Source: Verrucomicrobiota bacterium (GTDB lineage Bacteria > Verrucomicrobiota > Verrucomicrobiia > Verrucomicrobiales > DEV007). Taken from it: 64,000 nucleotides of DNA. A model generated the notes under the pieces. The model saw nothing but the letters and a program-made list of their open reading frames with translations. It was not told the origin of the DNA and ran no database searches. Below, piece after piece: positions 4,359 to 44,102 of the stretch; position 1 is the first letter of the stretch; each line of letters starts with the position of its first letter. Made by a program: the position numbers and the translations under genes. The stretch is from the NCBI GenBank assembly GCA_018970725.1, contig JAGWVU010000016.1, positions 1-64,000 of the forward strand. Reading direction: 5' to 3'.

Positions 4359-5906
4359 ATGTCAGCAACGCCGAAAAAAGGAGCCAGGCAAGGTGCCGCC
4401 CCGGAGGAAACCCCGGAGGTGCCGCCCGCGGTCGTGTCCGAGGTTCACGGGGAGCACAAGCTCGTCCAGGTGCGCCGCGAGAAGTTGGAGAAGTTGCAGG
4501 CGATGGGGATCGATCCTTACGGGGCGCGCTTTGCGACGACGCACCAGCCCGGGGCCTTGCGGGCGGAGTTCGCGGAGAATCTGGAGGTGAAGGTCGCGGG
4601 GCGGATCGTGGCCTGGCGGGACATGGGGAACAGCCAGTTCTTCGAGATCGCGGATGTGGACGGCAGGATCCAGTGTTTCCTCAATCCCAAGAGCGTGGGG
4701 GAGGAAGCGTTCGGCGTCTTCAAGCTGTTGGACGTGGGCGACTGGATCGGGGTGGGCGGGGAGACTTTCACGACGCGGACGGGTGAACCGACCATCAAGG
4801 TAACGACCCTGACGGTGCTCGCGAAGTCCTTGCGGCCGTTGCCGGACAAGTGGCATGGGATCGCGGACCGGGAGTTGCAGTATCGGAAGCGGTATTTGGA
4901 CTTGATTGCCAGCGAGCGGAGCCGGGACATCTTCCGGAAGCGCAGTCTGATGGTGGCGGAGATCCGTTCCTTTCTCACGGCGCGCGGGTTTTTGGAAGTG
5001 GAGACGCCGATGTTGCACGGGGTGGCGGGGGGAGCGGCGGCGCAGCCGTTCCGGACGCGGCACAACGCGCTCGGCATGGATTTGAATTTGCGGATCGCGC
5101 CGGAGCTGCACTTGAAGCGGTTGTTGGTGGGCGGATTTCCCAAGGTTTTCGAGTTGAACCGGAATTTCCGCAACGAGGGGATCAGCCGCCGGCACAACCC
5201 GGAGTTCACCATGCTGGAAGCCTACTGGGCCTATTCGGATTTCGAGCAGATGGCGGAATTGGTGGAGGAGATGGTTTGCCATCTGGCGGAGAAATTTTGC
5301 GGCGGGCTGCAGATCGAGCATCGCAACGCGGAGGGCGGGTTGCTGAAGACGATTGATCTGCGTCGCCCGTGGAAGCGCCAGGACTACCGGTCGCTGATCG
5401 AGGAAGTTGATCCCGGCTGGTTCAGCCGCACGGCGGAGGACCGGCGGAGGCGGGCGGAGGAACTGGGGGTGCAGCTTGGGGAGGACCTGGTGGATCACGA
5501 GGTGACCCAGCAGATTTTCGAGAAGCTGGTGGAAGAAAAGACGGACAACCCCTGTTTCGTGACCCATGTCCCGGCCTTGCTGGTGCCGCTGGCGAAGCAA
5601 AACCGGGCGGACGCCAGTCTTGTGGATGTCTATGAACTGATCATCAACGGTCAGGAGATTTCACCCGGTTATTCGGAGTTGAACGATCCCGTGGTGCAGC
5701 GCCAGCGGCTCGAGCATCAGGCGGGGGAGGAGGTGCAGAAGGTGGATGAGGACTTTTTGGAGGCCCTGGAATACGGGATGCCGCCGGCCGGAGGGATTGG
5801 CATCGGGATCGATCGACTGGTCATGATGCTCACCGGCGCGGAGTCGATCCGGGACGTGGTCCTGTTTCCGCACATGAAGCCGCTGCCCAAAGCGGGCGGA
5901 AGTTGA
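4359..5906 (+). CDS. lysS: Lysine--tRNA ligase, class II
   Basis: A 515-aa cytosolic class II lysyl-tRNA synthetase that charges tRNA-Lys. An OB-fold anticodon-binding domain (VAGRIVAWRDMGNSQFFEI) comes first, then the class II catalytic core. Motif 2 is visible as NRNFRNEGISRRHNPEFTMLE and motif 3 as GIGIGIDRLVMML near the C-terminus. The first 30 residues are a low-complexity Ala/Pro/Lys extension; the ATG at 4359 is kept because the frame is continuous and the next domain starts at EHKLVQVRREKLE. It stands alone on the plus strand, followed 30 bases later by clpS. Confidence 0.97.
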   Translation: MSATPKKGARQGAAPEETPEVPPAVVSEVHGEHKLVQVRREKLEKLQAMGIDPYGARFATTHQPGALRAEFAENLEVKVAGRIVAWRDMGNSQFFEIADVDGRIQCFLNPKSVGEEAFGVFKLLDVGDWIGVGGETFTTRTGEPTIKVTTLTVLAKSLRPLPDKWHGIADRELQYRKRYLDLIASERSRDIFRKRSLMVAEIRSFLTARGFLEVETPMLHGVAGGAAAQPFRTRHNALGMDLNLRIAPELHLKRLLVGGFPKVFELNRNFRNEGISRRHNPEFTMLEAYWAYSDFEQMAELVEEMVCHLAEKFCGGLQIEHRNAEGGLLKTIDLRRPWKRQDYRSLIEEVDPGWFSRTAEDRRRRAEELGVQLGEDLVDHEVTQQIFEKLVEEKTDNPCFVTHVPALLVPLAKQNRADASLVDVYELIINGQEISPGYSELNDPVVQRQRLEHQAGEEVQKVDEDFLEALEYGMPPAGGIGIGIDRLVMMLTGAESIRDVVLFPHMKPLPKAGGS

Positions 5907-41600: not shown

Positions 41601-41879
41601 ATGCCTAGATCACTCAAAAAGGGTCCTTTCGTGGACATGAAGTTGCTCGACAAGGTTGACGCCATGAACGAGTCCGGCAAGAAGCGTCCCATCAAGACGT
41701 GGTCCCGCCGCTCCATGGTCATCCCGGACTTCGTCGGTCACACGTTTCTCGTTCACAACGGACGCGAGTTCATTAGCGTTTTCGTCTCGGAAAACATGGT
41801 GGGCCACAAGCTCGGTGAATTCTCCCCGACCCGGAAATTCGTCGGTCATAGTGGACACAACCCGAAGATCAAGGGCTGA
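41601..41879 (+). CDS. rpsS: 30S ribosomal protein S19
   Basis: A 92-aa head protein with [10 protein letters not shown] at the start and [20 protein letters not shown] and [16 protein letters not shown] toward the end. Its stop is 38 bases before an unrelated secreted-protein gene that separates it from rplV; normally rplV follows directly. Confidence 0.96.
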
Positions 41880-41916
41880 ACATTTCTTCCGCCGACCGTC
41901 CCATCCTCAGAATTTC

Positions 41917-42783
41917 ATGAAACCCACCCTGCAACCTTCCGCTGCCCTGCTCGCCCGCGCTTGCGCCGGGTTGTGTGTGGTTGCCGGACTTTTGCCGGGG
42001 GCGGTCCAACTGGGGGCCGGGGAAGCAGTGACCGCACCCGGTGCGGATTTGTTGATCGAAGAGTTGCAGTTCGCCTTGGAGACGGCCCACCGCCGGATTG
42101 AGGCACTCGAGAAGCAATTGGCCAATGCGGGTCCGGGCGGGGACGCCGGGCAAGGCACCTTGGCTGCCTCGCTTGCGGCCGCCAACCAAGAGGCGGAGCA
42201 GTATCGGGTGCGGTATCGTGATCTCTTGGTCCGGGTGGAGTCGCTGGGGCTGGCCACGATCCGTTCAGACCGGGCCCTTGAAGACCGCATGATCAAGGCG
42301 GTGCGGGAGCGCCAGCATTATTTGGAGCGGACCGAAGAGTCTCAGGAGCAGATGATGCGATTGAGCGAGGCGGTGATGGATTACCTCAAGGCTTCGAGCA
42401 GCACGAGTCCTGACGTGCGCCTCCGGCTTGAGGCGGAGCTTCGCCGCGCGGATGAGGTTCTTGGGTTGGGGCAGGTGCGCCGCTCTACTTTGGACTCGGT
42501 GGTTGGGGAAACGGGTGGCAGTGCCAACCTGGGGGATGGACATGTCGTCGGTTTCAAGTCGGAGCTGAGATTGGCCGTGATCGATATCGGCAGCCGCAAC
42601 GGGATCAGGGTGGGGATGCCTTTGAACATCGTCCGCAAGGATCGGGTCGTGGGCACCGCGATGGTCGTGGACGTGAGGGACACTGTTTCCGGCGCGTTGG
42701 TGGAGGAGTATTTTCGAGAAGGGGACCGGGTGGAAGTCCGGGACCGGGTCGAGCCGCGGACCATTGCGGGCTCGGACCTGTAA
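41917..42783 (+). CDS. Secreted coiled-coil protein inside the S10 operon
   Basis: A 288-aa protein not normally found between rpsS and rplV. An N-terminal hydrophobic leader (AALLARACAGLCVVAGLLPG, about 8-28) predicts secretion or an anchor. A long helical/coiled-coil part spans about 45-185, with regular heptad-like hydrophobics (LLIEELQFALETAHRRIEAL). A small beta-rich domain follows at about 208-270, containing DIGSRNGIRVGMPLNIVRKD and VGTAMVVDVRDTVSGALVEE. The layout (signal, coiled coil, beta domain) is MreC-like in outline, but this is only a structural resemblance. The earlier start at 41815 overlaps rpsS and is rejected. It is co-directional with gaps of 37 and 35 bases, so probably co-transcribed. 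Confidence 0.8.
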   Translation: MKPTLQPSAALLARACAGLCVVAGLLPGAVQLGAGEAVTAPGADLLIEELQFALETAHRRIEALEKQLANAGPGGDAGQGTLAASLAAANQEAEQYRVRYRDLLVRVESLGLATIRSDRALEDRMIKAVRERQHYLERTEESQEQMMRLSEAVMDYLKASSSTSPDVRLRLEAELRRADEVLGLGQVRRSTLDSVVGETGGSANLGDGHVVGFKSELRLAVIDIGSRNGIRVGMPLNIVRKDRVVGTAMVVDVRDTVSGALVEEYFREGDRVEVRDRVEPRTIAGSDL

Positions 42784-42818
42784 GGATGGCTGGATGAACT
42801 TTTGATTTGGAAACCGAG

Positions 42819-43292
42819 ATGGAAATCAGAGCAACACACAGATACGCCCGTATTTCAGCGCTCAAGGCGCGTGACGTGGCCCGCGAGGTAACCGGCATGG
42901 CGGTATCCGACGCCTTGGATGTCATTCGTTTCACGCCGAAAAAGGCGGCGTATTTGATTGGCAAGACCTTGAAGTCGGCCATCGCGAATGCGGAAGCCAA
43001 TCATGACATCAGTGCCGATCTCCTGGTGGTGAAGTCGGCCACCGTCAACGAGGGACCGGCCCTGAAGCGCTGGAGCCCCGCGGCACGGGGGGGAGCTTCC
43101 CCGATCCGGAAGCGCACCAGCCATATCTTCATCGTGCTGACCGACGAGGGCGGCGAGGCTTCTGCTCGCAGGGAGCGCACCCAGGAGGCCAGGCCGGCCA
43201 AGAAGAAGGTGGCGAAGACCGCGCCTCAGAGCGGTGGGGACGAAGCGCCGGAGGCGGGTTCGGGCGAAGCTTCCGAGTCGTCGGCGAAATGA
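42819..43292 (+). CDS. rplV: 50S ribosomal protein L22, with C-terminal extension
   Basis: A 157-aa protein; E. coli L22 has 110 residues. The core runs from EIRATHRYARISALKARDVA through FTPKKAAYLIGKTLKSAIANA to RTSHIFIVLTD. The last 45 or so residues are an Ala/Lys/Glu-rich tail (ARRERTQEARPAKKK), likely on the ribosome surface. ATG 42819 is preferred over TTG 42807. Confidence 0.95.
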   Translation: MEIRATHRYARISALKARDVAREVTGMAVSDALDVIRFTPKKAAYLIGKTLKSAIANAEANHDISADLLVVKSATVNEGPALKRWSPAARGGASPIRKRTSHIFIVLTDEGGEASARRERTQEARPAKKKVAKTAPQSGGDEAPEAGSGEASESSAK

Positions 43293-43334: not shown

Positions 43335-44102
43335 ATGGGACAGAAGGTTAATCCAATCGGGTTTCGGCTCGCGGTCAGCAAGGACTGGCATTCGAAGTGG
43401 TATGCACCGAGGGGCGAGTATGCCTCCATGTTGCACAGCGATCTCATGGTCAGGGAATACCTGAAATCAAAGCTTCAGTTCGCTGCGGTGGCGAGGATCG
43501 TCATCGAGCGGGCTTGGAACAGCGTGCGGGTCACTCTTTACAGCGCCCGGCCGGGCTTGGTGATCGGTCGCAAAGGGGCCGAGATCGAAGGGGTCACGGC
43601 CACCGTTTCGGAAATGTGCGGGGGCAAGCAGGTCAAGATCGACATCGTGGAGATCAAACAGCCGGAGACCGATGCACAATTGGTCGCGGAAGGAGTTGCA
43701 TCCCAGTTGGAAAAGCGTATTTCTTTCCGCCGCGCGATGAAGCGCGCTCTCCAGACCGCAATGGATTTCGGCGCCGACGGCATCCGGATCCGTTGTGCGG
43801 GACGGTTGGGCGGTGCTGACATTGCTCGGGCGGAGTGGTATAAGGAGGGCAAGGTGCCTCTGCAAACGCTTCGTGTGCCGATCGATTACGGATTTGCCGA
43901 GGCTTCCACGGTGTATGGAATCATTGGCGTGAAGTGTTGGATCAACCGGAACCCCGATTCCGAAAAAGCGAGGGCCGCCCGGCCCGGCGGTGGACAGCGG
44001 GAGCGAAGGGGAGGTGGTGAGCGGCGTCCGGGGCCCGATCGTCGTTCTTATGGCGGCGGCGGCGGCGGAGGCGGTGCACCGCGCGTGGAGAGCGAGGGCT
44101 AA
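43335..44102 (+). CDS. rpsC: 30S ribosomal protein S3, with Gly/Arg-rich tail
   Basis: A 255-aa protein at the mRNA entry site. The KH domain with VIGRKGAEIEGVTATVSEM and the C-terminal domain with GADGIRIRCAGRLGGADIAR are standard; beyond about residue 215 follows a Gly/Arg-rich tail with an eight-Gly run. An AAAGG lies upstream of the start. Confidence 0.96.
   Translation: MGQKVNPIGFRLAVSKDWHSKWYAPRGEYASMLHSDLMVREYLKSKLQFAAVARIVIERAWNSVRVTLYSARPGLVIGRKGAEIEGVTATVSEMCGGKQVKIDIVEIKQPETDAQLVAEGVASQLEKRISFRRAMKRALQTAMDFGADGIRIRCAGRLGGADIARAEWYKEGKVPLQTLRVPIDYGFAEASTVYGIIGVKCWINRNPDSEKARAARPGGGQRERRGGGERRPGPDRRSYGGGGGGGGAPRVESEG

Follow-up and report, generated by a model that had tools for sequence, protein, structure and literature searches.

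The window analyzed was a 64,000-nucleotide stretch of contig JAGWVU010000016.1 from a Verrucomicrobiota bacterium (GenBank assembly GCA_018970725.1). Within it, an S10 ribosomal protein operon has the gene order fusA, rpsJ, rplC, rplD, rplW, rplB, rpsS, an additional open reading frame (ORF), rplV, rpsC, and rplP, an order that is otherwise standard. We refer to the additional ORF as the S10-operon gene (Table 1). It is intact, with 288 codons for a 288-amino-acid protein, an ATG start, and a TAA stop. The distance from the rpsS stop codon to the ORF is 37 nt and that from the ORF to the rplV ATG is 35 nt, with all three genes on the same strand, confirming the description in the initial annotation of an ORF between rpsS and rplV with short codirectional gaps. 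The initial annotation also noted a composition similar to that of the neighboring genes. This is true at the codon level: GC3 was 0.760, matching the ribosomal genes, and codon adaptation to the operon was 0.740, compared with 0.69 to 0.79 for the neighbors. Elsewhere in the operon, the C-terminal tail of the rplV product (window 43143-43292) is rich in lysine, alanine, and glutamate, and the end of the rpsC product is rich in glycine and arginine, in both instances beyond the conserved domain.

Table 1. Positions of the S10-operon gene, its predicted parts, and its surroundings in the window
Feature	Position	Strand	Basis or remark
rpsS (S19), 5' neighbor	41601..41879	+	Mapped in the window
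37-nt intergenic gap	41880..41916	+	No + strand promoter-like or terminator-like site
S10-operon gene, 288-aa putative exported coiled-coil and beta-barrel protein	41917..42783	+	Place conserved in relatives
Hydrophobic core of putative N-terminal export signal, residues 15-26	41959..41994	+	Own rule-based scan
Predicted helical/coiled-coil region, residues 43-196	42043..42504	+	AlphaFold2 and family motif
Predicted C-terminal six-stranded beta barrel, residues 206-283	42532..42765	+	AlphaFold2, conservation, and fold matches
35-nt intergenic gap before rplV	42784..42818	+	Sequence
rplV (L22), 3' neighbor	42819..43292	+	Linkage to the S10-operon gene outlasts operon split
rpsC (S3), next operon gene	43335..44102	+	Mapped in the window

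The predicted protein begins with a leader whose core has a mean Kyte-Doolittle hydropathy of 2.45, with two K/R residues before it and no D/E. A hydrophobic core was present in 64 of 67 named relatives, followed by an AxA-like site in 63 of the 67. The n-region charge, hydrophobic core, and AxA-like site expected for Sec export were all found with our own rule-based scan for these features, which was used in place of SignalP. The leader thus fits a Sec signal, suggesting that it would be cleaved and that the protein would be located in the periplasm. AlphaFold2 modeling with 67 sequences predicted helices from residue 43 to residue 196 and a six-stranded barrel from residue 206 to residue 283, the barrel with a pLDDT of ~97. 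The barrel alone folded with a pTM of 0.80. The pTM of the full-length model was only 0.39, and therefore the overall shape, the relation of the parts to each other, and the oligomeric state are not fixed by the model. Conservation is highest in the barrel, which has the motif G...GvrvGmP..v.R...ig.a.VvDvRd.isGA.....vGD, and next highest in a helical family motif, EALG...LEQRLLKAVRDL...LSEA. This predicted anatomy agrees with the hydrophobic leader, long coiled coil, and small beta domain initially proposed.

Searches of Pfam and NCBIfam yielded no model above the cutoff for the S10-operon protein. We regarded hits to Bac_luciferase, Rnk_N, and eukaryotic coiled-coil families as chance similarities, and weak PDB sequence matches to MexC-like 9j3d (E value, 0.0012) and TsaP (E value, 0.04) were set aside. 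The top fold match to the barrel was the C-terminal domain of FlgT (VIA Z, 10.6 to 11.1; rmsd, 1.9 to 2.8 over 73 to 80 residues; Foldseek TMq, 0.66), and the N-terminal barrels of F1-ATPase matched within 1 Z of FlgT. Because this barrel fold is common to unrelated proteins such as F1-ATPase, it cannot by itself be taken as proof that the protein is a scaffold. FlgT_C (PF16538) was also the most frequent weak Pfam match among the relatives (14 of 67; best E value, 1.1e-4), and the window protein had no match to the PF16538 model. The FlgT C-terminal domain (PF16538; PDB 3w1e and 8z5n) has the six-stranded barrel in common with the S10-operon protein, and FlgT is likewise an envelope protein. 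However, FlgT is a flagellar H-ring protein that lacks the long helical region, and the identity between the two is ~15%. The C-terminal region of TsaP (PDB 3jc8), which accounts for the weak barrel-motif sequence match, was also a Foldseek match, but TsaP is a LysM-domain protein found at type IV pilus secretins, whereas the S10-operon protein has no LysM match.

The initial annotation considered the protein to be MreC-like in outline. The loose architectural likeness stands: MreC (PF04085) also has a hydrophobic N-terminus, a helical segment, and an extracytoplasmic beta domain, and a short motif of its first barrel is common to the S10-operon protein. One proposal could be that the S10-operon gene encodes a second MreC, a diverged paralogue with a scaffold function in cell-wall elongation that is expressed together with ribosomes. 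In addition to the shared outline, MreC structure 7eft ranked first in a Foldseek search with the full model, and the NCBIfam MreC model (NF010513) matched residues 139 to 237 with an E value of 2e-4. However, that match scored 20.7 bits against a cutoff of 380, and a comparison of the window protein with PF04085 gave no hit. The window genome encodes a separate MreC (G000:C47:40042-40533; E value, 2.6e-35), as part of a broader pattern in which 15 of the 16 genomes tested, this one included, have a true MreC at another locus. Profile comparison (hhalign) of the S10-operon family with those MreCs was weak, with a probability of 34% over 48 columns. MreC aligned to ~57 of 90 barrel residues with a TMq of 0.45, well below the value for FlgT, and it has two barrels and is anchored, whereas a single barrel and a likely cleaved signal are predicted for the S10-operon protein. 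Furthermore, one complete Akkermansia-like genome (G043) has the S10-operon protein and no PF04085 match. Membership in MreC was ruled out by the score below the cutoff, the separate MreC, and the weak profile similarity, and a divergent paralogue with an MreC-like task is improbable.

Proteins with the same architecture are encoded elsewhere. Tandem membrane-anchored proteins with a coiled coil and a barrel were found in the window genome (contig C29 of G000; L184:4047-4835 and 4878-5657) and at a second locus (L199:2310-4035). The tandem proteins of the window genome are homologous to the S10-operon protein by profile (hhalign, 99.2%) and are also uncharacterized. Unlike the S10-operon protein, they are anchored and are not linked to ribosomal genes. 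In the window genome the tandem genes are near an M23-peptidase-like ORF (L184:2987-3736, recognized by eye) and a Fur-like ORF. The proximity to a putative M23 peptidase, a single observation, hints at a task in the cell wall.

The S10-operon gene is not confined to one genome. Of 57 genomes belonging to its genus, family, or order, 56 had a relative that was detected in a protein search. Among fetched genomes that had a full-length relative and both neighboring genes on the contig, a sample that includes loci from ~20 further families, the relative was between rpsS and rplV in every case (74 of 74). When the whole class was searched with a profile, 195 of 286 genomes had a match at an E value of ≤0.001, some of them weak. 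A scan of contigs from named genomes with peptide patterns of the family, which distant forms elsewhere may escape, yielded 69 confirmed loci, all in Verrucomicrobiota. These include Chthoniobacter flavus Ellin428, a metagenome-assembled genome labeled Prosthecobacter debontii, Akkermansiaceae, and Terrimicrobiaceae. The relative was between rpsS and rplV in all 67 of the named loci with both neighbors on the contig, with median gaps of 29 nt on the rpsS side and 27 nt on the rplV side. Fourteen genomes from other Verrucomicrobiota classes have diverged relatives in the rpsS-rplV slot, and these carry an anchor, a lipobox, or a signal. All of these figures for presence or absence of the gene were obtained from samples rather than from a census. 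They demonstrate that the gene is conserved in place across the phylum, a positive outcome of the comparison of rpsS-rplV neighborhoods that the initial annotation had proposed. The earlier reading of an envelope protein inside the S10 operon is supported.

Among three congeners dN/dS was ~0.13 to 0.17, values that are approximate because dS, at 1.3 to 1.8, was near saturation. The gene is under purifying selection. The ORF is a conserved gene and not a chance ORF, because relatives are present in nearly all of the genomes searched in its genus, family, and order, in the same slot in every fetched locus, and with these low dN/dS values. The same slot in distant relatives is as expected of a resident gene of the S10 operon. 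Distances between the S10-operon proteins were correlated with those of S19, L22, and L2 (Mantel r, 0.70; 122 loci); the highest correlation in 999 permutations was 0.16. This correlation points to vertical inheritance of the gene in step with the ribosomal proteins, with the S10-operon protein evolving ~4 times faster (median distance, 1.64 versus 0.41).

Recent import on a mobile element, for which only the unusual place of the gene speaks, is at odds with the phylum-wide conservation, the vertical signal, and the native codon usage. Furthermore, searches of plasmid (72,556 records) and phage (50,697 records) sequences gave no match. Recent or mobile insertion was ruled out by the distribution, the codon usage, and these negative searches, and we assign such an origin almost no probability. 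The recent insertion that the initial annotation had offered as an alternative is thus refuted by the distribution of the relatives. Restriction to a single strain with deviant codon usage, which would have pointed to a chance insertion, was not what was found; the gene is widespread, and its codons are like those of the operon.

In further families rpsS and rplV have become separated; in G333, G384, G407, G410, and G429, for example, they are on a single contig but a long distance from each other. A split of the S10 operon after rpsS, which leaves rplV-rpsC-rplP elsewhere, occurs in many genomes of the phylum (loci L204-L249 and L254-L279); the families with a split operon are f66, f71, f72, f76, f77, f82, f88, f90, f91, f92, and f94. 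In split operons a relative is directly upstream of rplV, heading the rplV-rpsC-rplP half. A profile identified such a relative in 16 genomes, and alignment alone identified it in three others; in six split genomes in which a relative before rplV was sought, none was detected. The split-lineage form matched the full form with a probability of 98.2% in a profile-profile comparison. In the rpsS-rplV slot, families f13, f37, and f45 and part of f16 have short forms of 112 to 130 amino acids that comprise only the putative export signal and the barrel (profile match to the full form, 98.1%). Thus, the coiled coil is dispensable in these families. In many families nothing recognizable was found in the rpsS-rplV slot, where the gap was mostly 3 to 130 nt and in a few cases up to ~220 nt, and thus the S10-operon gene is not indispensable throughout the phylum. 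One genome (G101, family f27; locus L087) has a 556-nt rpsS-rplV gap with a 127-amino-acid ORF that has no likeness to the family and is possibly a decayed copy. The simplest history consistent with these comparisons is that the gene was present at one site in the ancestor of the phylum and was then repeatedly lost or shortened; independent gains at one site seem unlikely.

It is possible that the gene is a passive passenger, an ancestral insertion kept only because breaking the operon is costly, in which case the protein itself would be useful and its position would have no regulatory meaning. The repeated absence or shortening of the gene and its faster evolution relative to its neighbors are consistent with this explanation. 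However, many lineages have a broken operon, with the break immediately 5' to the gene, and there the gene has remained with rplV as the first gene. Codon usage like that of highly expressed genes also argues against a passive role. We consider this explanation unlikely. The linkage to rplV that was kept after breakage argues that the position matters. Possible reasons are coupling of dose, a link to cotranslational export, or a promoter or leader of rplV that lies within or ahead of the gene.

A scan for promoters and terminators, which is a weak test, found no + strand promoter-like site and no terminator-like site in the gaps. The S10-operon gene is likely on one transcript with rpsS and rplV, because the gaps are short and codirectional and no promoter or gap terminator was predicted. 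The reading that we favor, with a probability of roughly 0.55, is that the gene is a resident, vertically inherited member of the S10 operon that encodes an exported housekeeping protein, likely an envelope scaffold, whose dose follows that of ribosomes. According to this model, an N-terminal signal peptide would direct the protein to the periplasm, with a membrane anchor or lipobox serving instead in some relatives. The long helices would probably oligomerize as a coiled coil, and the C-terminal FlgT-C-type barrel would be the part under the strongest constraint. The protein would most likely have a structural or scaffolding role in the cell envelope. Translation from a ribosomal protein transcript would make its amount rise and fall with ribosome synthesis and growth rate. 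A stronger proposal, which we advance only tentatively, is that this phylum-specific exported protein is functionally tied to ribosome production, with adjacency to rplV setting its dose and having been selected through the break of the operon.

Nonribosomal genes are known in ribosomal protein operons, as exemplified by secY, adk, map, and rpoA. Like these, the S10-operon gene is a codirectional, nonribosomal, putative housekeeping gene, and it shares a connection to the envelope with secY. It differs in that its product is apparently exported, in its location between rpsS and rplV, and in being found, as far as tested, only in Verrucomicrobiota. A gene for an exported protein that holds a fixed place within the S10 operon of a single phylum appears to be a new form of this arrangement. 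The presence of secY in the neighboring spc operon is an established precedent for another explanation, in which the protein would be a periplasmic partner of the ribosome-bound secretion machinery (SecYEG/YidC), which would account for the link to ribosomal genes. Predicted export and conservation beside rplV across the phylum are in accordance with such a partnership. Yet neither sequence nor fold matched known translocon accessory proteins, and we judge this role to be improbable.

No description of the gene was found in literature searches, which covered its locus, the gene order of the S10 operon in the phylum, and Akkermansia locus tags. A transposon study of Verrucomicrobium spinosum identified 618 essential proteins, 100 of which are of unknown function (PMC12283558). 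The main text of that study (PMC12283558) does not mention the S10-operon gene, which is a candidate for one of those 100 proteins.

Few bacterial gene neighborhoods are as stable as the rpsS-rplV pair. The S10-operon gene could be used as both a synteny marker and a protein marker for Verrucomicrobiota. How envelope growth is coupled to ribosome synthesis is a long-standing question, and a putatively exported protein that is kept in this neighborhood, and that stays with rplV after the operon splits, would provide a natural case of such coupling.
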